Source of the DNA: Georgenia ruanii
Lineage (GTDB): Bacteria; Actinomycetota; Actinomycetes; Actinomycetales; Actinomycetaceae
Reading direction: 5' to 3'
DNA: 53,279 nt
Assembly (NCBI RefSeq): GCF_009193175.1
Contig: NZ_VUKE01000025.1
Coordinates: 1 to 53,279 of the forward strand
Shown here: in pieces, positions 30,477-40,947 of the stretch
Numbering within the stretch: position 1 is the first letter of the stretch
Layout: every line of letters begins with the position of its first letter
Position numbers and translations under genes: made by a program
Notes under the pieces: model-generated
What the model saw: only the letters and a program-made list of their open reading frames with translations
What the model was told of the DNA's origin: nothing
Databases searched by the model: none

Positions 30477-31090
30477 AGTGCCCCCTTGGTCGACGGCACG
30501 CCCTCCACGCGGGGGTCGAGCGCGACCGCGGCGCGCAGCGCCCGGGCCAGCGCCTTGAACTGCGCCTCGACGATGTGGTGCGGGTCGCGCCCGGCCAGCA
30601 CCCTCACGTGCAGGCAGATGGCGGCGTGGTGGGCGATCGACTCGAGCACGTGCCGGGTCAGCGAACCGGTGAAGTGCCCGCCGATGAGGTGGTACTCCTG
30701 CCCCTCCGGCTCGCCGGAGTGGACGAGGTAGGGGCGCCCGGAGACGTCGACGACCGCGAGCGCGAGGGCCTCGTCCAGCGGCACCATGGCGTCCCCGAAG
30801 CGGGAGATGCCCTTCTTGTCCCCCAGCGCCTGGCGCAGCGCCTCGCCGAGGCAGATGGCGACGTCCTCGACGGTGTGGTGGGCGTCGATGTGGGTGTCCC
30901 CGGTCGCGCGCACGGTGAGGTCGATGAGGGAGTGCTTGCCCAGCGCGGTGAGCATGTGGTCGTAGAAGGGCACCGACGTGGAGATGTCGGTCCGCCCGGT
31001 GCCGTCGAGGTCCAGCTCGACGACGACGTCGGACTCCGACGTCGTGCGCACGACCCGCGCCGTGCGCGTTCCCACCAGCTGCTGCGTCAC
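30473..31090 (-). CDS. hisB: Imidazoleglycerol-phosphate dehydratase
   Basis: A 205-residue dehydratase (single-function, without the phosphatase domain of E. coli HisB). It has the two metal-binding His clusters [15 protein letters not shown] and [16 protein letters not shown], plus [15 protein letters not shown] (GDxHHxxE-like). The GTG start overlaps the hisC stop (GTGA). Length matches other IGPDs. Confidence 0.97.
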
Positions 31091-32238
31091 CAGCCCAGCA
31101 CCTCCTCCAGCGCCGCCTTGAAGGCGGCCGTCTCCTGCGGCGTCCCGACCGAGACGCGCAGCCAGCCCGCGGGCCCCACCTCGCGGATGAGGACGCCACG
31201 CTTCAGCAGACCATTCCACACCGCGTGGCGATCTTCGAAAACTCCGAAGAGCACGAAGTTGGCGTCCGAGTCTGCCACCTGCAGCCCGTGCCCCCGCAGC
31301 CAGGTCACGAGCTCGTCGCGCTCGGCGCGCAGCGAGGCCACCTGGCCCATCAGCGCACCGCGGTGACGCAGCGCGGCCAGTGCGGCCGCCTGCGTCACGG
31401 CGGAGAGGTGGTAGGGCAGCCGGACGACGCGGAGCTTGTCCACCAGCGCCGGGGCCGCCGCGAGGTACCCCAGGCGCAGCCCGGCCATGCCGAACGCCTT
31501 GGACATCGTCCGGGAGACGGCCAGGTGGGGGAAGCGCTCGAGCAGGTCCAGCGCGGTGGGGGTGCCCTCGCGGCGGAACTCGCCGTACGCCTCGTCCACG
31601 ACCACGACCGAGGCGGTGGGGCCGCCGTCGGCGTCGGCCGGCCCGGTGGTCGCGGCCGCCTCGCAGATCGCCTCGATGGTGCTCAGCGGCAGGGCGGTGC
31701 CCGTGGGGTTGTTCGGGCTGGCGAGGAGGATCACCGCGGGGCGGTGGGCGGCGACCTGGGCGACGGCGTAGCCGGGGTCGAGGCTGAAGTCCTCCTCGCG
31801 CCGCGCGGCGATCCACGCGGTGAGGGTGTCGCGGGCGTACTCGGGGTACATCGAGTACGTGGGCGCGAAGGAGAGGACCGCGCGGCCGGTGCCGCCGAAG
31901 GCCTGCAGCAGGTGCAGCATGACCTCGTTGGAGCCGTTCGCCGCCCAGAGGTGGTGCGGGGCGAGCGTGACGCCGGACTCCACGCGCAGGTACTCGGCGA
32001 GCTCGGCGCGCAGCTCGCCGAAGTCGCGGTCCGGGTAGCGGTTGAGGCCGTGGGCGGCCTCGGCGACGGCGGCGGCGATGTCCGCGACGACGGCGTCCGA
32101 CGGCGGGTAGGGGTTCTCGTTGACGTTCAGCCGCACCGGCACGTCGAGCTGCGGCGCGCCGTAGGGCTCGAGGCCCGCGAGCTCGGGGCGCAGCGGCAGC
32201 CGCACGCTCTCGGTCGCCTCGGTGGAGGGGGTGGTCAC
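31087..32238 (-). CDS. hisC: Histidinol-phosphate aminotransferase
   Basis: A 383-residue class I/II PLP aminotransferase. [48 protein letters not shown] and the PLP lysine region [17 protein letters not shown] are all present. The GTG at 32238 is 6 nt after TAGACT, a leaderless arrangement. It is first in the hisC-B-x-H-priA-sseB transcript; hisD, normally just upstream, is 5.6 kb away. Confidence 0.96.
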
Positions 32239-32244
32239 CCCACG

Positions 32245-32250
32245 AGTCTA
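32245..32250 (-). promoter_or_regulatory. Leaderless -10 of hisC
   Basis: TAGACT on the minus strand ends 6 nt before the GTG start, with no ribosome site. It suggests hisC gained or uses its own promoter now that it is detached from hisD. No convincing -35. Confidence 0.6.
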
Positions 32251-32304
32251 GGTGCCGTGGGCGGGCCCGACGGCGCGTGGCCGAGTGACGGACGGTGGCG
32301 CGTG

Positions 32305-32427
32305 GCGCCTGCAGGCGCTCGCCGCGCGGCCCCGCCGTCCCGCTCGGGCCGCGAGCGCCCGGGGCCACTCTTCCCGGGCGGGTTGCCCCGGGGCGCTTCC
32401 GCGGAATCGTCCCGCCCGGCGGGCGGG
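32305..32427. repeat. Cluster of palindromes at the hisC border
   Basis: Within 123 bp there are three exact inverted repeats: gcgcctgcaggcgc (32305-32318), ttccgcggaa (32397-32406) and cccgcc/ggcggg around a 5-nt loop (32411-32427), with a further cccgggc/gccccgg foldback between them. The 257-bp gap between hisC and the TMEM175 gene holds nothing else apart from the two start-site promoters. Confidence 0.55.
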
Positions 32428-32495
32428 CATTGCCGGCGCTACTGGGCTGCCGATGCCGCCGCGTCATGCCGCCCGGCGTCGCTTAGCGTCGATCC

Positions 32496-33095
32496 ATGTC
32501 GACCGGTCGCATGGAGGCGTTCAGCGACGCGGTCATCGCGATCGCCATCACGGTGATGGTGCTCGAGCTGCCCACGCCGCACGACACCACCTGGCACGCC
32601 CTGCGGGACGCGTGGCCGGTGCTGCTGTCGTACGTGCTGAGCTTCGTCATCCTCGGCATCTACTGGAACAACCACCATCACATGCTGCAGGCCACCACGC
32701 GGGTGAACGGGCCGATCCTGTGGGCGAACCTGCACCTGCTGTTCTGGCTGTCGCTGGTCCCGTTCACCACCGCCTGGATGGGCGAGAACGCCTTCGCGTC
32801 GGTGCCCACCGCGGCCTACGGCGTCGTCCTGCTCGCCGCCGCCCTGGCCTACTACGCCCTGCAGGGCCTGATCATCCGGGACCAGGGCGAGGGGTCCATC
32901 GTCGCCGCCGCGGTGGGCCGGGACCTCAAGGGCAAGCTCTCGCCGGTGCTCTACGTGATCGGCATCGGCCTGTCCTTCCTCAGCAGCCGGGCCGCGGTCG
33001 CCGTCTTCGCCACGGTCGCGCTCGTGTGGCTGATCCCCGACCGCCGGATCGAGCGCGGCCTGACCGCCGCTCGTCCGGATGACGGCGGGGAGTGA
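32496..33095 (+). CDS. TMEM175/DUF1211-family membrane protein
   Basis: A 199-residue membrane protein with the hallmark of TMEM175 potassium channels, a first helix beginning GRMEAFSDAVIAIAITVMVLE (FSD motif), and about six membrane segments, including YWNNHHHMLQ. Bacterial members form potassium-selective channels as tetramers. The ATG at 32496 is 6 nt after TAGCGT (32484-32489), with no ribosome site. First gene of the block separating hisD from hisC. Confidence 0.85.
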   Translation: MSTGRMEAFSDAVIAIAITVMVLELPTPHDTTWHALRDAWPVLLSYVLSFVILGIYWNNHHHMLQATTRVNGPILWANLHLLFWLSLVPFTTAWMGENAFASVPTAAYGVVLLAAALAYYALQGLIIRDQGEGSIVAAAVGRDLKGKLSPVLYVIGIGLSFLSSRAAVAVFATVALVWLIPDRRIERGLTAARPDDGGE

Positions 33096-33272
33096 CGAAG
33101 CACCGGTTCTGCTCTCCCTGCACGCGCGGTCGCGGCCTGCCCGCGTGTGCAGCCAGCCCTCGCCGCCGGCGCCACCGATGTTTCCGCGGAAGCGCCCGCA
33201 CCGTGCCCGCACACGGCGCCCCTGGCCGTTCTCGTTCCCTCGGAGGAGTTTCCACATCTTTCTCGAGGCCAA

Positions 33273-33317
33273 GCGACCGATGTCAGCCCCCTCTCCTAGG
33301 CTCGAACGAAGTTTCGA
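33273..33317 (+). promoter_or_regulatory. LexA (SOS) box overlapping the promoter of the HNH-recQ pair
   Basis: TCGAAC, 4 bp, TTTCGA (33302-33317) matches the mycobacterial/actinobacterial LexA box TCGAAC-N4-GTTCGA at 11 of 12 defined positions. It begins at the last base of a probable -10 TAGGCT (33297-33302), with gcgacc (33273-33278) as a weak -35 at 18 bp. LexA bound here would block transcription, so damage induction is expected. The box lies 15 bp upstream of the ATG, before the GGAGGT ribosome site. The rest of the 237-bp upstream gap shows no gene. Confidence 0.65.
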
Positions 33318-33332
33318 CGACGGAGGTGTGCG

Positions 33333-35000
33333 ATGCTGCTGGCAACCGGCGACCCACCCGCGACGGCCATGCCCGAGGATCAACCGGTGTCGGACTCCAC
33401 GTCCCCGCCGGGCGGCCCCGTCCCGGCGTCAGACGAGGCGCTCGTCGACGAGCTGACCACCGTGGCGGCCCACATCGCCGCCGCGACCTGCCGGTTCCTG
33501 GTCCTGCTCGGCGAGTTCGACGCACGGGAGGCCTGGGGCGAGGACGGCATCCTCTCCGCCGCGCACTGGCTCGGCTGGCGATGCGGGATGGGCCCCGTGG
33601 CCGCCCGGGAGCACGTGCGGGTCGCCCGCGCGCTGCGCGCCCTGCCGGTCACGGTCCGGGCCTTCGCCCAGGGCCGCCTCTCCTACTCGAAGGTCCGCGC
33701 CATCACGCGGGTGGCCACGCCCCAGACCGAGGCCGACCTGGTCGACGTCGCCCTGCATGCGCCTGCCCATCACCTCGAGCGTCTCGTGCGCGGGCTGCGC
33801 ACGACGCAGACCCTTGAGGACAGCCGCGAGCGCCACGCGCGCCGGCACCTGTCCTGGCGGTGGGCCGACGACGGCTCGCTGCTCCTGTCCGGGCGCTTCT
33901 CTCCGGAGGACGGGGCGCTGATCGTCCAGGCGCTCGAGGTGCGCCGCGACCGTGCTGAGGCCGAGCTCGCCGACACGGTGCCACCCGAGGCGGACGCCCC
34001 CCCAAGGCGGGAGGACGAGCCGCCGGACCCGACCGTCGCCGACCGCAGGTCCCTCGCCGACGCGCTGGTGGAGCTGTGCGCCGAGGCGCCGGTCCCGGGC
34101 GACGACAGGCCCCGCACCAGCCGCTCCCCCGAGACGGTCGTGCACGTGACGCTCGCCGACCTCCGCTCGCCCACCGCGCCGGTGGACACGGTCGACACCG
34201 CCCCAGCGGTCGACGGGAACGGGACGGCGCCGCTCATGGCGTCCGACGCCGCCCCGCCGCCGCAGGCCCTCGCCACCGAGTCCCTCGTCACGACACCGCG
34301 CCTCGACGACGGCCCGGCCCTGCACCCGGAGACCGCCCGCCGCCTCGCGTGCGACGCGGGGATCGTCGTCGAGGTCCACGACGACGGCGTCGGCGTCTCG
34401 GGCCGCACGCTGGAGGTGGGCGCGAAGGTGCGGAAGCCGACCGCGGCGCTGATCCGGGCGCTGTGGGGCAGGGACCGCGGGTGCCGCTACCCCGGCTGCA
34501 CGCGCAGGCACTTCCTGCAGGCCCACCACGTCCTGCACTGGGCCGACGGCGGACTCACCGTGATCACCAACATGGTGCTCCTGTGCGGCACCAACCACAG
34601 GCTCCTCCACGAGGGCCAGTACTCGCTCACCCTGGATCCCGACGGCTCGGTGACGGTCCGCGACCGGCGCGGCGCGATCATCCATCCCGTACCGGCCCAG
34701 GCCGGGCGGCTCGATGGCTGGCGCCCCGCCGTCGCCGTCGACGCCGCGACCCTCACCCCCGAGTGGTCGGGCGAGCCGCTGGACACCGCCTACGCCACCA
34801 CGGTGCTGCTGGAGAGCTGGGCGCTCGCCGAGGAGCTGGCCGCCGCTGACGCCGAGGACCCCGAGCCGGCGGAAGCCGCCGGCGAGCTCACGGACCCTTG
34901 TCTCTCGCAGGACCAGCAGGTCCCCCGCCGCCCACACCCCGACGACGGGAGGCGCGCCGACTGTGAGAGCGTGGACGCCGACGGAGGGGACGATTCATGA
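33333..35000 (+). CDS. DUF222 / HNH endonuclease domain protein (13E12-type)
   Basis: A 555-residue protein. DUF222 covers about residues 30-340, and an HNH nuclease motif follows with the zinc Cys pair in CRYPGC (384-389), the tandem His in QAHHVLHW (398-399) and the closing LCGTNHRLLH. The last 60 residues are Asp/Glu-rich. This family is abundant in actinobacteria (mycobacterial 13E12 repeats), with unproven function. Start ATG follows GGAGGT. Its stop overlaps the ATG of the recQ-like gene (ATGA), and a LexA box precedes it, pointing to a DNA-damage role or a mobile origin. Confidence 0.9.
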   Translation: MLLATGDPPATAMPEDQPVSDSTSPPGGPVPASDEALVDELTTVAAHIAAATCRFLVLLGEFDAREAWGEDGILSAAHWLGWRCGMGPVAAREHVRVARALRALPVTVRAFAQGRLSYSKVRAITRVATPQTEADLVDVALHAPAHHLERLVRGLRTTQTLEDSRERHARRHLSWRWADDGSLLLSGRFSPEDGALIVQALEVRRDRAEAELADTVPPEADAPPRREDEPPDPTVADRRSLADALVELCAEAPVPGDDRPRTSRSPETVVHVTLADLRSPTAPVDTVDTAPAVDGNGTAPLMASDAAPPPQALATESLVTTPRLDDGPALHPETARRLACDAGIVVEVHDDGVGVSGRTLEVGAKVRKPTAALIRALWGRDRGCRYPGCTRRHFLQAHHVLHWADGGLTVITNMVLLCGTNHRLLHEGQYSLTLDPDGSVTVRDRRGAIIHPVPAQAGRLDGWRPAVAVDAATLTPEWSGEPLDTAYATTVLLESWALAEELAAADAEDPEPAEAAGELTDPCLSQDQQVPRRPHPDDGRRADCESVDADGGDDS

Positions 35001-37300
35001 CGGAGTCAGCAGTGGCCAGCTCGGGAACCCAGGCGCCCGCGACCCTCAGGGAACGGGCCGAGGCGGCCCTGCGGTCGCTGGTCGACCGGGAGGACGCCCG
35101 GCTGCGCGAGGACCAGTGGACCGCGATCGAGGCCCTGGTCGCGCGCCGACGGCGGGCGCTCGTGGTCGAGCGCACCGGATGGGGCAAGTCGGCGGTGTAC
35201 TTCGTCGCGACGATGCTCCTGCGCGCCGGCGCCGCCGACCGCCCGCCCGCCGGCCCGACCGTGATCATCTCCCCACTGCTGGCCCTCATGCGCGATCAGA
35301 TCAACGCCGCGGCGCGCGCCGGCATCCGCGCGGTGACCATCAACTCCTCCAACGTCACGGAGTGGGACGCGGTGCACGCCGCGATCGCCGGCGGTGAGGT
35401 GGACGTGCTGCTGTGCTCCCCGGAGCGGCTGAACAACCCCGCCTTCCGCGACGAGGTGCTGCCGAGCCTGGCCGCCAGCGCCGGCCTCGTCGTCGTCGAC
35501 GAGGCACACTGCATCTCGGACTGGGGCCACGACTTCCGCCCGGACTACCGCCGCATCCGGACCCTGCTCGGGGACCTGCCGGCGGGCATCCCGGTGCTCG
35601 CGACGACGGCGACCGCCAACGCGCGGGTGAGCACCGACGTCGCCGAGCAGCTCGGCGTGGGCCGGCACGACGAAGACGTCCTGGTGCTGCGCGGCTCCCT
35701 CGACCGGCCCTCGCTGCACCTGGGGGTGCTGCCTCTGCCCGACCAGCCCAGCCGGATCGCCTGGCTGGGCCAGCAGCTGGCCCGCTACGACGGCTCCGGC
35801 ATCATCTACACACTCACGGTCTCCGCCGCCCAGCAGGTGACCGAGCAGCTGCGGGCCGCCGGCCACGACGTCCGCGCCTACACCGGCCAGACCGACACCG
35901 CCGAGCGCGAGCAGCTCGAGGCCGACCTCAAGGCCAACCGGGTCAAGGCGCTCGTCGCCACCTCCGCGCTCGGCATGGGCTTCGACAAGCCCGACCTCGC
36001 CTTCGTCATCCACCTCGGCGCCCCCTCCTCCCCCATCGCCTACTACCAGCAGGTCGGCCGCGCCGGCCGCGGCGTCGACCGGGCCGACGTCGTGCTGCTC
36101 CCCGGGCGCGAGGACCAGGACATCTGGGACTACTTCGGCTCGCTCGCGTTCCCGCCCGAGCACGCGGTGCGCGATGCCCTGGCCGCCCTGGCGGCCGGCG
36201 GCACCATGTCCACGGCACGGCTGGAGACGCAGGTGGACCTGCGCCGCAACCGGCTGGAGACCATGCTCAAGGTCCTCGACGTCGACGGCGCCGTGCGCCG
36301 GGTCCGCGGCGGGTGGGAGGCCACCGGGCGGGAGTGGGTCTACGACGGCGAGCGCTACGCCCGCGTCGCCGCCGCCCGCGAGGCGGAGCAGCAGGCGATG
36401 CTCGGCTACGAGCACCTCGACGGCTCCGGGTGCCGGATGGCGTACCTGCGCGCCCAGCTCGACGACCCCGAGCTCGAGCCGGGCTGGCGGTGCGGGCGCT
36501 GCGACCTGTGCGGCGGCCTGAGCCTGGACCCGTCGGTCGACGTCGGCGCCGTGCAGCAGGCCCGCGCGGCCATGGACCGTCCCGGCATCGAGGTCACCCC
36601 ACGGCGGCAGTGGCCCACCGGCATGGAGGCGCTCGGCCTGGACCTGCGCGGGAAGATCCCCGACGCCGAGCGCGCCGAGGACGGCCGGGCGCTGGCCCGG
36701 CTCGACGGGCTCGGCTGGTCCGTCCCCCTGCGTGAGCTATTCGAGCCGGCCCACGGCGCTGGCGCGGCGACGGCCGGCGACCCCGCGGCCGATCCAGCGC
36801 CCACCGACCCTGCGGCCGATCCAACCTCCCCGGCGGGGCCGGTCGAGGCGGCGCACGGCCGGGACGGGCTCCTGCCCGCGGCGCTGCGCCGCCCGGTCCA
36901 GCAGGTGCTCGAGGAGTGGGCGCCAGCCCTCCGCCGCGGAGACGGGTCCCCCGGCGTCGACGGCGTCGTCGTCCTCGCCTCCGCCGCCCGGCCCGAGCTG
37001 GTCACCCACCTCGCCCGCGGCGTCGCCCACATCCTGCGCGCGCCCGTCGTCGGCGAGGTGGTCCCCGACCCGGACCGGCCAGCCGGCCGCCACGACGTCA
37101 ACTCCGCCCAGCGGCTGGCGGGCATCCAGCGCCGCCTGCACCTGAGGCTGTCGGAGGCCGCGGTCGCCGGGCTGCCCGGGCGCACGGTGGTCCTCGTCGA
37201 CGACTACACCGACTCCGGCTGGACCCTGGCCGTCGCGGCGCGCCTGCTGCGTCAGGCCGGCGCCACGGCCGTGCACCCGTTCGTGCTCGCCCAGCGCTGA
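34997..37300 (+). CDS. RecQ-family helicase with C-terminal phosphoribosyltransferase-like domain
   Basis: A 767-residue protein. Helicase motifs: Walker A GWGKS (about 61-65), ISPLLALMRDQ, DEAHCISDWGHDFRPDY (DEAH about 168), ATTATA, and the RecQ motif VI YYQQVGRAGR. Four Cys (about 478-506, GC...CGRCDLC) form the zinc site. A Pro/Ala-rich repeat linker (DPAADPAPTDPAADP) leads to a final 130 residues containing LVDDYTDSGWTL, the PRPP-binding signature of type I phosphoribosyltransferases. Standard RecQ has winged-helix and HRDC domains instead; none is obvious. 3'-5' helicase activity is likely; the PRTase-like part is of unknown use. ATG shares bases with the DUF222 stop. Confidence 0.92.
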   Translation: MTESAVASSGTQAPATLRERAEAALRSLVDREDARLREDQWTAIEALVARRRRALVVERTGWGKSAVYFVATMLLRAGAADRPPAGPTVIISPLLALMRDQINAAARAGIRAVTINSSNVTEWDAVHAAIAGGEVDVLLCSPERLNNPAFRDEVLPSLAASAGLVVVDEAHCISDWGHDFRPDYRRIRTLLGDLPAGIPVLATTATANARVSTDVAEQLGVGRHDEDVLVLRGSLDRPSLHLGVLPLPDQPSRIAWLGQQLARYDGSGIIYTLTVSAAQQVTEQLRAAGHDVRAYTGQTDTAEREQLEADLKANRVKALVATSALGMGFDKPDLAFVIHLGAPSSPIAYYQQVGRAGRGVDRADVVLLPGREDQDIWDYFGSLAFPPEHAVRDALAALAAGGTMSTARLETQVDLRRNRLETMLKVLDVDGAVRRVRGGWEATGREWVYDGERYARVAAAREAEQQAMLGYEHLDGSGCRMAYLRAQLDDPELEPGWRCGRCDLCGGLSLDPSVDVGAVQQARAAMDRPGIEVTPRRQWPTGMEALGLDLRGKIPDAERAEDGRALARLDGLGWSVPLRELFEPAHGAGAATAGDPAADPAPTDPAADPTSPAGPVEAAHGRDGLLPAALRRPVQQVLEEWAPALRRGDGSPGVDGVVVLASAARPELVTHLARGVAHILRAPVVGEVVPDPDRPAGRHDVNSAQRLAGIQRRLHLRLSEAAVAGLPGRTVVLVDDYTDSGWTLAVAARLLRQAGATAVHPFVLAQR

Positions 37301-37303
37301 GCG

Positions 37304-37759
37304 TCACAGCCGCGGCGAGCTGAGCCGGACGAACGGCACGCGCGCCGCGACCTGCTCGAGCGTGCCGGGCCGGTCGAGGTCCAGCCCGAGAGCCCGCGCG
37401 AGCATCCGCGCGCGCCAGGGGTGCAGGCGCCGGTAGCGCTCGAGCAAGCGCGTCCCTTCCGGGGCGTCGAGCAGCTCGGCGCGCCCGCGCACACCGACGG
37501 CGTGGCGCCACCACAGCCGCACGCGGGGGTCGGCGACGAGGTTGCGGTACCACTGCGAGCCCGGCCCGTAGCCGGCCGCCACCACCACCGCGCCGGGCTC
37601 CCGGAGCACGACCGTGAGCACCACGTAGCGTCGCCGTCGCGTGCGCCGCCCGAGGTGCTCGACCAGCACGTACGGGCTCAGGAGCGGGCCGAGCCCGGCG
37701 CGCAGGAGCGGGATGGGCGCCCGGGCCAGCCAACGAGGGATGCGAGCCACGCCGCCCAT
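37304..37759 (-). CDS. F420-type (DDN/DUF385) nitroreductase-family protein
   Basis: A 151-residue protein resembling deazaflavin-dependent oxidoreductases: a hydrophobic N-terminal helix (RWLARAPIPLLRAG), LLSPYVLVEHLGRRTRRRRYVVL, YGPGSQWYRNLVADPRVRLWW, and a helical end with ARMLARALGLD. Such proteins bind F420 or FAD and reduce nitro or quinone groups; substrate unknown. The ATG at 37759 comes directly after the hisD terminator hairpin with no ribosome site, so a GTG three codons later could be used instead. Converges on recQ 3 bp away. Confidence 0.82.
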   Translation of the reverse strand: MGGVARIPRWLARAPIPLLRAGLGPLLSPYVLVEHLGRRTRRRRYVVLTVVLREPGAVVVAAGYGPGSQWYRNLVADPRVRLWWRHAVGVRGRAELLDAPEGTRLLERYRRLHPWRARMLARALGLDLDRPGTLEQVAARVPFVRLSSPRL

Positions 37760-37787
37760 GGTGCCGCCCCGGGGGCGGGGCGGCACC
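37760..37787 (-). terminator. hisD terminator hairpin
   Basis: Perfect 11-bp arms (ggtgccgcccc 37760-37770 and ggggcggcacc 37777-37787) around a 6-nt loop start 7 bp past the hisD stop. The hairpin would end hisD transcription before the F420-type gene and isolates hisD from the rest of the his genes. Confidence 0.75.
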
Positions 37788-37794
37788 GGATGGG

Positions 37795-39147
37795 TCAGAA
37801 CCGCGCGTTGACCGCCTCGCCGTGCGCGGGCAGGTCCTCGGAGGCGGCGAGCGCCGTGAGCGGCGCGGCGACCTCCTTGAGCGCGGTCTCGCCGTACTCG
37901 ATGACCTGGACGGACTTGATGTACGCCGTCACGTTGAGGCCGCTGGCGAAGCGCGCGGTTCCGCCGGTGGGCAGCACGTGGTTGGACCCGGCGAGGTAGT
38001 CGCCCAGCGGCACCGGGGAGTACGGGCCGACGAAGATCGCGCCGGCGTTGCGGATCCGGTCGGCCACCGCGGCGGAGTTCTCGGTCTGGACCTCGAGGTG
38101 CTCGGCACCGTAGGCGTCGGTCACGGCCACCGCCTGGTCCAGGTCCGCGACCAGCACCGTGCCGGACTGCGGGCCGGACAGCGCGGTGCGCACCCGCTCG
38201 GCGTGCTTGGTGGCCGGCACCCGCCGCTCGATCTCGGCGTCGACGGCGTCGGCGAGCTCCGGGGAGTCGGTGATGAGCACCGAGGCGGCCGCCGGGTCGT
38301 GCTCGGCCTGGGAGATGAGGTCCACCGCGACGAACCCCGGGTCCGCCGTCGCGTCGGCGAGCACGGCGATCTCGGTGGTGCCCGCCTCGGCGTCGATGCC
38401 GACGACGCCGCGCACGGCGCGCTTGGCGGCGGCGACGTAGACGTTGCCCGGGCCGGTGACGACGTCCACCGGCGCGCACAGCTGGTCGCCGTCGAGCCCG
38501 GCGGCGGCGAGGTCGGCCCGGTCGGTGGCGGTCTCGGCGCGGGCGCCATAGGCGAACATGGCGACCGCCTGGGCGCCGCCGACGGCGTAGACCTCCTCGG
38601 CGCCCAGGAGCGCGCAGGCGGCGAGGATCACCGGGTGCGGCAGGCCGCCGAACGCCTTCTGCGGCGGGCTGGCGATGGCCAGCTGCTCCACGCCCGCGAC
38701 CTGGGCGGGCACGGCGTTCATCACGACGCTGGAGGGGTAGACGGCGAGGCCGCCGGGCACGTACAGGCCGACCCGGCGCACCGGCACCCAGCGCTGGCGC
38801 ACCACGCCGCCGTCGACGATCGCGGTGGTCGTCTCGCGGGGCAGCTGGGCCTCGTGGCCGGCGCGGTTGTGCGCGATGGAGAGCTCCAGCGCCTCGCGCA
38901 CCGCCGGGTCGAGCTGCTCCAGCGCCCGCGCGATCGCGGCGGCCGGCACCCGCAGGTGCTCCGGCCGCACGCCGTCGAACCGCTCGCCGAGGTCGCGCAG
39001 CGCGGCCGCGCCGCGGTCCCGGACGTCGTCGATGACCGGACGGATCTGGGCCATCGCCGCCTCGACGTCGAGCGCGGCGCGGGGCAGCACGCCGGCGAGC
39101 TCGGCGGAGGACAGGGTCTGGCCACGAAGGTCGATGCGCTGGAGCAT
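37795..39147 (-). CDS. hisD: Histidinol dehydrogenase
   Basis: A 450-residue zinc enzyme oxidising histidinol to histidine in two steps. [15 protein letters not shown] carries the zinc-binding Gln/His, [12 protein letters not shown] and [12 protein letters not shown] are typical, and [15 protein letters not shown] is near the end. The ATG at 39147 is 7 nt after TAGGAT and lacks a ribosome site. In most relatives hisC follows directly; here a terminator does. Confidence 0.97.
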
Positions 39148-39538: not shown

Positions 39539-40363
39539 TTACTCGAACGCCGGCACCCGCTCCAGCGTCGTGCCGTCGGCCAGGTGGATCGTCAGCTCGA
39601 ACGCCCCGCCCCCGCTCCCGGGCCACCACGCGCCGTAGAAGCCGTTGTCGACCGTCGCCTGCACCGACTCGGGCACCACACCGGGTGGCGGCGCGTGGGG
39701 GTCGTCGGGCGATCCGAGCGGGTGGACGTCGACGCCGACGACGTCGCTGCCCACGCGCCCGTAGATCGCGGTGTACGCGCCGGCGCCGGCCCCGGCCCCG
39801 GCGGCGAGGACGGTGCCCACCTCGGTAGGTGCCAGCTCCGCCGCTCCGACGAAGCTGCCCCAGCCGGAGCTGGTGACCTGCCCGTCCAGGACCAGGCAGT
39901 GCGCCATGCCCACGGGGCTGGCCGTGACGATGAAGGTCACGTCCCCCCGTTCCTCGGCGAGGACCACCTCGCCGGTGCTCAGGCTCGATTCGCTCGAGCG
40001 GCCAGTCGCGCACGGCAGCTCGCCCAGCCGCTCCTGCAGCCGGGCGACCGGGAGCTCCTCGGGCACGGCCGTCCAGGTGGCGAAGGCGTGCTCCGGGGCG
40101 CCCCACGGCGGCAGCACGACGAGGCCGACGGCCACCGCCGCGGCCGCACCCACGAGCAGCCAGCGGCGCACCGGCCCGCGCGCGGCTGACCCGCCAGCGC
40201 CGCCGCCCCCGCGGGCGGCACCGGCGGGGCCACCGGCCCGCGCCTCGGCGAGGATGCGCTCCAGCATCACCTGCGCGGCGGGCTCCCGGCCGGTCGCCGC
40301 TCGCGGCGCGTGGGCGGGGTCGAGCACCCGGAGGTCGCGCAGGTCGGCGTCGTCGGTGCTCAT
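39539..40363 (-). CDS. Membrane partner of ECF sigma factor (candidate anti-sigma)
   Basis: A 274-residue protein with a cytoplasmic region of about 65 residues ([31 protein letters not shown]), one membrane segment (about 68-90, [19 protein letters not shown]) and an outside domain of about 180 residues. It has no recognisable zinc-binding anti-sigma motif. Its ATG overlaps the sigma-factor stop (ATGA), and this order is the usual anti-sigma position, so the role is inference. Confidence 0.65.
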
Positions 40364-40947
40364 GCGAGGGCTCCTTCGGTCGGGCGGGGATCGTCGAGGT
40401 GGGAGCGGAGCCGGCTTCGCGCCCGGCTCAGCCGCACGCTGAACGCCGACGTCGAGACGCCCAGGACCACCGCGGCCTCGGTCGGCGTCAGCCCGTCCCA
40501 CGCCACCAGGGCGAGCGCCTCCTGGTCGCGGGGTCCGAGGCGGCGGAAGGCGCGGGCGAGGTCGACCCGGTGCACCACCTCCGAAGGGTCGGTGACATGC
40601 GCCGGCGGCTGGGCAGCCACCCGCACCAGCAGCGCCCGAGCCCGGCGACGCCCCCGGTGGGCGTTGGCCAGGGTCCGGTGGGCGACGGCGAAGAGCCACG
40701 GGCGCACGCCGGTCGGGTCCGCCGGGAGGTCGGCGAGACGGCGCCAGGCGACGAGGAAGACCTCGGCGACGACGTCCTCGACGCCGGCCGGGTCGCAGCG
40801 GCGTTCCACGAAGCGCACGACGTCGTCGTAGGCCTCCTCGAAGATCCTGCGGAAGACCGCCGCACCCGGCATATCGGACGACGTCATGCCGTACATCGTG
40901 GCATCGGGCGGCCGGGCGGCGGTCCCGGTCGGAGGTGGCGCGCTCAT
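40360..40947 (-). CDS. ECF-type RNA polymerase sigma factor
   Basis: A 195-residue sigma factor with only regions 2 and 4. Region 2 includes VEDVVAEVFLVAWRRLADLP and WLFAVAHRTLANAHRG; region 4 is a helix-turn-helix at LTPTEAAVVLGVSTSAFSVR. Translation could begin at 40947, 40896 or 40887; the first is shown, though the later ATGs remove a Pro-rich tail. The 164 bp upstream holds an imperfect CATA...TATG repeat next to the first ATG. Confidence 0.88.
   Translation of the reverse strand: MSAPPPTGTAARPPDATMYGMTSSDMPGAAVFRRIFEEAYDDVVRFVERRCDPAGVEDVVAEVFLVAWRRLADLPADPTGVRPWLFAVAHRTLANAHRGRRRARALLVRVAAQPPAHVTDPSEVVHRVDLARAFRRLGPRDQEALALVAWDGLTPTEAAVVLGVSTSAFSVRLSRARSRLRSHLDDPRPTEGALA

Follow-up and report, generated by a model that had tools for sequence, protein, structure and literature searches.

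A candidate DNA damage-inducible operon of a DUF222/HNH gene and rqlH in Georgenia ruanii

The window analysed here, a stretch of 53,279 nt of the soil actinobacterium Georgenia ruanii (contig NZ_VUKE01000025.1 of GCF_009193175.1; genome of 4.42 Mb, hereafter G000), contains a DUF222/HNH gene (P0001) whose stop codon overlaps the start of rqlH (P0002), which encodes a RecQ-like helicase with a C-terminal phosphoribosyltransferase domain. With moderate confidence, we interpret the two genes, each resembling a damage-response gene, as an operon induced by DNA damage in which a putative HNH nuclease is combined with RqlH, a unit that probably serves repair. At the level of sequence, this reading is based on promoter elements, gene order and overlap, recurrence in three genera, purifying selection, and RecA-NDp-like promoters in front of many solo rqlH genes. 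The locus comprises the following features:

33281..33302, plus strand: core promoter of the RecA-NDp/PafBC type, TGTCAG-N10-TAGGCT, matching TGTCR-N11-TAnnnT, not the full TGTCRGTG-N8-TAnnnT
33302..33317, plus strand: LexA-type box TCGAACGAAGTTTCGA; its first base is also the last base of the -10-like TAGGCT
33322..33326, plus strand: GGAGG, likely ribosome-binding site, by sequence reading
33333..35000, plus strand: DUF222/HNH gene (P0001), 555 aa, open reading frame with domain matches
33438..34181, plus strand: DUF222 domain, residues 36-283, profile match, E 1.4e-15
34497..34610, plus strand: HNH domain, residues 389-426, profile match, 22.0 bits (cut-off 21.4)
34962..34974, plus strand: leader element TGTGAGAGCGTGG before rqlH, within the 3' end of the DUF222 frame
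34997..35000, plus strand: ATGA overlap of rqlH start and DUF222 stop, read in the sequence
34997..37300, plus strand: rqlH (P0002), 767 aa, RecQ-like helicase with C-terminal phosphoribosyltransferase domain, domain and profile matches
35108..36070, plus strand: helicase core, DEAD (residues 38-210) and Helicase_C (residues 260-358), profile matches
37157..37291, plus strand: phosphoribosyltransferase part with loop VVLVDDYTDSG, residues 721-765, profile match

The first-pass annotation of the window had described a LexA-type box with one mismatch before the DUF222/HNH gene, a stop codon sharing bases with the start of the RecQ-type gene, and a C-terminal phosphoribosyl pyrophosphate (PRPP)-binding part of the helicase, and all three were confirmed. 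The box at 33302-33317 differs in one position from TCGAAC-N4-GTTCGA and ends 15 nt upstream of the ATG at 33333. The core promoter which directly precedes and abuts this box had been missed. It resembles the RecA-independent damage promoter, for which an excerpt of PMC5656591 gives the consensus tTGTCRgtg - 8 nt - TannnT and which is named RecA-NDp and linked to PafBC in passages of PMC6789036 and PMC8223512. Scans for both elements were consensus matches, the relaxed RecA-NDp motif being TGTC[AG]-N11-TAnnnT and the full motif TGTCRGTG-N8-TAnnnT.

Both element types occur before repair genes of G000. LexA-type boxes with at most one mismatch were found at 27 distinct places of the genome, among them the upstream regions of recA, lexA, dnaE2, and a Rv2578c-type radical SAM gene (L190, L189, L187, and L186, respectively), and thus this type of box suits the genome. 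The full RecA-NDp motif occurs at 19 sites, the reversed pattern at none. Nine sites precede genes with repair-type domains, i.e., recA, uvrB, uvrC, polA, sbcD, a UvrD-type helicase gene, an O6-methylguanine methyltransferase gene, an exonuclease-domain gene, and a SprT-like gene, and four precede DUF222 genes. The remaining six are without a clear link to repair (a 5'-nucleotidase gene, two ATP-binding cassette (ABC) transporter genes, a luciferase-like monooxygenase (LLM) family oxidoreductase gene, a DAK2-domain gene, and one unidentified gene). Furthermore, a tandem pair of WYL genes resembling PafB-PafC is located at 19.9-21.1 kb of C35, and judged by the tandem arrangement they may encode PafB and PafC. 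Actinobacterial genes with an SOS box and a RecA-NDp motif upstream, for example recA, are described in a passage of PMC8223512. In recA of G000, both elements are likewise present, with starts approximately 80 bp apart, whereas they abut in the promoters of the DUF222 clade discussed below.

Besides the window gene, G000 contains 15 further DUF222 genes or gene pieces. The relaxed motif lies within 700 bp upstream of eight of them, and the respective loci contain no further match. In the scanned upstream stretches, 3 of the 16 genes or pieces, window gene counted, have a LexA box that deviates by no more than one mismatch. In case of the DUF222 gene of C4, the box lies within the longest reading frame, so that the true start is probably situated further on. 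Similar promoters were observed in relatives. For the clade of P0001 (families f1 and f13), the relaxed motif is present in the 260 bp upstream of all 14 DUF222 genes, five times in full form, and an abutting LexA-like box shows at most one mismatch in six and at most two mismatches in nine of the 14 promoters. In total, 18 relaxed matches were obtained when 23 DUF222 loci were scanned on both strands; the upstream stretches of 141 other genes predicted in 22 of the loci contained none.

Across the genus, 49 unique DUF222 genes had 400 bp or more of upstream DNA (10 of 59 were dropped). Of these, 25 show the relaxed motif, 17 the full motif, 11 a LexA box, and 6 both elements. In 600-bp windows of these loci, counted on both strands and including the DUF222 promoters, the corresponding rates are 32/836 for the relaxed motif and 53/836 for the LexA box, and thus the motif is strongly concentrated at DUF222 promoters, the LexA box less so. 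At the level of the phylum, the 26 best DUF222 genes from 296 genomes (3 of 29 dropped due to short upstream DNA) show the relaxed motif in 12, the LexA box in 11, and both in 6 cases, compared to 15/314 and 23/314 windows of these loci (both strands, promoters included). In five of the six promoters with both elements their starts are 22-23 nt apart. A different arrangement was seen at L177 (C30 of G000) and L361 (G555), where the LexA box does not follow the RecA-NDp motif but overlaps its spacer and -10-like part. In the open-access papers searched, no report of the composite promoter as a phylum-wide feature of the DUF222 family was found.

Recurrence of the gene pair was assessed in genome samples that were best-scoring or evenly drawn, and the rqlH sets overlap. 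All nine genomes of the genus carry rqlH between hisC and hisD. A DUF222 gene adjoins it in two of them, G000 and G007 (81% identity), joined to rqlH by the ATGA overlap in both. In G010, which belongs to another genus of the same family, the hisC-hisD interval likewise contains a DUF222 gene (54-57% identity), which is preceded by a LexA box with one mismatch and shares GTGA with the start of rqlH. Furthermore, in genus g48 of another family, f13, a DUF222 relative is situated upstream of rqlH in three of four sampled genomes, in two of them with a gap of approximately 80 bp; the paired locus L276 shows an apparent frame change near its 3' end. The damage-type core precedes the box in all six paired copies (full form in G298 and G134), and the box itself deviates by one mismatch in G000, G007, and G010, by two in G298 and G181, and by three in G134. 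The first-pass annotation had regarded a restriction of the pair to this strain or genus as evidence against a functional unit; pairs were found in two other genera. Due to the paired copies in other genomes, a single-strain artefact was rejected, and the paired relatives likewise overturned the view of the DUF222 gene as a local insertion in one strain.

The DUF222 tree, which does not include the C30 gene, places the paired f13 copies together with solo copies of f13. As support for its deeper branching is weak, it does not distinguish between an old pair with later losses, repeated joining, and transfer. The rqlH tree places G008 with G000 and G007 (support 100). No DUF222 gene occurs at rqlH of G008 (L171, C1). 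Its upstream region contains a full RecA-NDp core, TGTCAGTG-N8-TAGGGT, from 200 bp upstream, and behind this core a LexA box without mismatch, the first base of which is 179 bp from rqlH. Judged by this promoter, it is no ordinary solo rqlH, an assignment which was given up. In the simplest reading of this arrangement, G008 would have lost the nuclease gene and kept the promoter, so that rqlH now appears directly behind a damage promoter.

Many solo rqlH genes are preceded by the damage-type motif as well. After removal of loci with less than 300 bp of upstream DNA and merging of duplicates, 137 distinct rqlH loci remained. A RecA-NDp-like motif is present within 300 bp upstream in 32 of them (7 in full form; 25 at most 80 bp from the start). 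The corresponding figures are 6 of 623 for other predicted genes of the same loci and 15 of 8624 for tiled windows, and the reversed pattern is absent from all 137. Two paired copies, G007 and G010, are contained in the 137 and are not among the 32. By set, the matches amount to 20/35 in the order, 8/21 in L024-L044, 2/15 in the family, 1/7 in the genus (G008), and 1/59 in L045-L103, a set dominated by Streptomyces and Nocardioides. Among 147 loci with at least 300 bp of upstream DNA, two paired copies included, a LexA box (one mismatch at most) was found within 700 bp of rqlH in two, namely G008 and a metagenome bin. Since either partner thus resembles a damage-response gene by itself in part of the phylum, a functional pairing is likelier than either sequence alone suggests. 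A one-mismatch LexA-like box was also noticed over the gene start of the solo rqlH of G150, a member of another family (L332, 11348-11363).

A profile search detected both domains in P0001, and the HNH region and motif can be aligned across all paired copies. Among solved structures, no DUF222 match was obtained for P0001, the best hit (E 0.52) being an HNH enzyme. For P0002, matches comprise DEAD (1.8e-22), Helicase_C (3.2e-18), TIGR00614 (223.0 bits, cut-off 219.8), PF00156 (Pribosyltran) at residues 721-765 (27.1 bits, cut-off 26.3), and the PADLOC family profile PDLC03928 PsyrT (664.8 bits, E 3.5e-200). Its loop VVLVDDYTDSG we take to be a PRPP-type loop. Solved structures matching P0002 at E <= 1e-10 are mostly RecQ helicases, and at this threshold none matched the phosphoribosyltransferase part. 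Between G000 and its sister genome G007, the ratio of nonsynonymous to synonymous substitution rates (dN/dS) is 0.33 for the DUF222 gene and 0.12 for rqlH; judged by these ratios, purifying selection is acting on both genes.

In undamaged cells, LexA would sit on the box at 33302-33317 and block the PafBC/RecA-NDp-type core promoter. Upon damage, LexA would be removed through RecA and PafBC activated, and the nuclease and RqlH would then be made together through the 4-base stop/start overlap. The HNH protein may cut damaged or branched DNA, which RqlH, as a 3'-5' helicase, may unwind for repair. The proposed model predicts that LexA and PafBC bind the promoter, that damage induces both genes, that they are co-transcribed, that the HNH protein is a nuclease, and that the unit acts in repair. 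Release of LexA and activation by PafBC would constitute two inputs to one promoter. The recurring composite damage promoter would give the many-copy actinobacterial DUF222/HNH family a testable job. It is tempting to speculate, although we regard this as rather doubtful, that DUF222/HNH proteins form a dedicated damage-induced nuclease family under one composite promoter with RqlH, which would be PafBC-controlled in many genomes, as its helicase, i.e., an undescribed pathway that is an operon in some lineages.

Parts of this arrangement have known counterparts. The 13E12 genes of mycobacteria are presumably members of the DUF222 family. For P0002, the counterparts are RqlH (Mycobacterium smegmatis MSMEG_5935, E. 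coli F11) and PsyrT, which share the RecQ-like core and the C-terminal phosphoribosyltransferase domain. According to an excerpt of PMC4670107, RqlH is a RecQ-family helicase with a phosphoribosyltransferase domain that is genotoxic in E. coli F11 without RqlI, 3'-5' helicase activity is reported for the M. smegmatis protein, and RqlH is the only one of the two encoded in 99.6% of the Gram-positives examined. Unlike those loci, rqlH is joined here to a DUF222/HNH gene that precedes it and carries a LexA-type box, and no RqlI/PsyrA gene adjoins it: like PsyrTA and RqlHI, the unit consists of two genes including one for an RqlH-family protein, but the partner is the upstream DUF222/HNH gene and not a downstream RqlI/PsyrA gene. 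The operon names RqlH, which in Gram-positives mostly occurs without RqlI, as a candidate partner of DUF222/HNH proteins. The first-pass annotation had mentioned SOS boxes of mycobacterial 13E12 genes; LexA control of 13E12 genes is reported for Mycobacterium tuberculosis in a passage of PMC4181829, and LexA control of five putative HNH endonucleases of this species is stated in a passage of PMC8151990. HNH genes under LexA control, reported there and predicted here, are common to mycobacteria and the present case, in which DUF222 and HNH are combined in many copies per genome. Unlike the mycobacterial genes, the DUF222/HNH gene overlaps rqlH, and a RecA-NDp-like core beside the box was found in no paper searched. 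A described function of the DUF222/HNH family was not found in the open-access literature. The first-pass proposal of a damage-induced nuclease-helicase unit gains from the pairing beyond the genus, from boxes with at most two mismatches in five of six paired copies and from the core in all six, and is limited by the previous description of the helicase family as RqlH/PsyrT, by the earlier reports on LexA control of HNH genes in M. tuberculosis, by LexA boxes at DUF222 genes without adjoining rqlH, and by the absence of DUF222 from most sampled rqlH loci.

Several observations weigh against the operon interpretation. The core promoter of the window gene matches the RecA-NDp pattern in relaxed form only, the LexA box is poor or missing in five of the 14 clade promoters (three mismatches in G134, G377, and G285b; none recognisable in G207 and G151), and the 260 bp upstream of nine more distant DUF222 relatives lack a RecA-NDp-like motif. 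At rqlH, LexA boxes (at most one mismatch, 300 bp) are not enriched, with 3/137 compared to 9/623 for other genes. A DUF222 gene was found at none of the 80 best rqlH loci of the genome scan, which include one congener and six loci with less than 2 kb upstream. Among 172 rqlH loci of overlapping sets, an adjacent DUF222 gene occurs only in G000, G007, and G010; at one further locus a DUF222 piece lies approximately 5.6 kb from rqlH. Relatives of the DUF222 gene gave matches in 74 of 396 genomes of the order, and 17 of the 20 places examined had no rqlH in the examined stretch, one of which was shortened on one side. In g48, one genome has a gene inserted between the pair, and the fourth lacks the DUF222 gene. 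Finally, the conserved rqlH leader (34962-34974) may give separate transcription.

The main rival is promoter capture, by which a copy of a many-copy, damage-regulated, perhaps selfish DUF222/HNH gene landed before rqlH and lent it LexA control without any joint function. Besides the 15 further genes or pieces in G000, 15-27 DUF222 matches (not genes) were counted in each of eight congeners, solo clade members occupy varied loci (most neighbours judged by eye), rqlH mostly occurs without a DUF222 neighbour, and in G000 and G007 the DUF222 frame extends across the conserved rqlH leader. Capture nevertheless appears unlikely, although to be taken seriously, in view of the identical placement, orientation, and 4-base overlap of the pair in two genera of one family, its unchanged order in another family, where approximately 80 bp separate the genes, the damage-type promoters present independently on both genes, and the purifying selection on both. 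Less probable still is a mere neighbourhood, in which only the DUF222 gene would be controlled through the LexA box and transcription of rqlH would depend on its leader. The leader TGTGAGAGCGTGG precedes rqlH in all nine genomes of the genus, with or without DUF222 (one mismatch in two); according to an alignment of seven of the nine congeners, it forms part of the 3' end of the DUF222 frame in G000 and G007. At up to two mismatches it was not seen in 74 other rqlH loci scanned and was seen once, with two mismatches, in 16 loci of the family; the scan covered all nine congeners and left out six of the best 80 rqlH loci, in which the anchor was not found. The 4-base overlap in G000, G007, and G010 and the LexA promoter before rqlH of G008, where the DUF222 gene is gone, speak against such a mere neighbourhood.

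We regard a defence or toxin-antitoxin unit, with RqlH as a PsyrT-like toxin and the DUF222/HNH protein in place of the missing PsyrA/RqlI, as highly improbable. The strong PsyrT match and the occurrence of RqlH without RqlI in nearly all Gram-positives examined in PMC4670107 would fit it, but no RqlI/PsyrA-like gene is located beside rqlH, the DUF222 gene is situated upstream whereas rqlI is reported downstream in the same excerpt, most sampled rqlH genes lack a DUF222 gene, and the locus lies among his genes. In a separate consideration of defence functions, the top PADLOC matches of P0002 were PsyrT and DpdF, with the matching regions located mainly in the helicase part, and P0001 gave only weak restriction-enzyme matches (E 0.03 or worse); with no adjacent RqlI/PsyrA gene, this assignment was rejected.

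The neighbours of rqlH in the window encode TMEM175, an aminotransferase (hisC), an F420H2 quinone reductase, and a histidinol dehydrogenase. No rqlI/psyrA-like gene adjoins rqlH, the downstream genes on the other strand being those for the F420H2 quinone reductase and the histidinol dehydrogenase; the rest of the genome was not searched for such a gene. Except for rqlH, which is present in all nine congeners, the content of the hisC-hisD interval (31087-39147 of the window) is variable, as if it were an exchange site, with TMEM175 and the F420H2 quinone reductase in G. ruanii and a methyltransferase (judged by eye) in L024. An extracytoplasmic function (ECF) sigma factor gene is located near the his genes at 40363-40947 on the minus strand.

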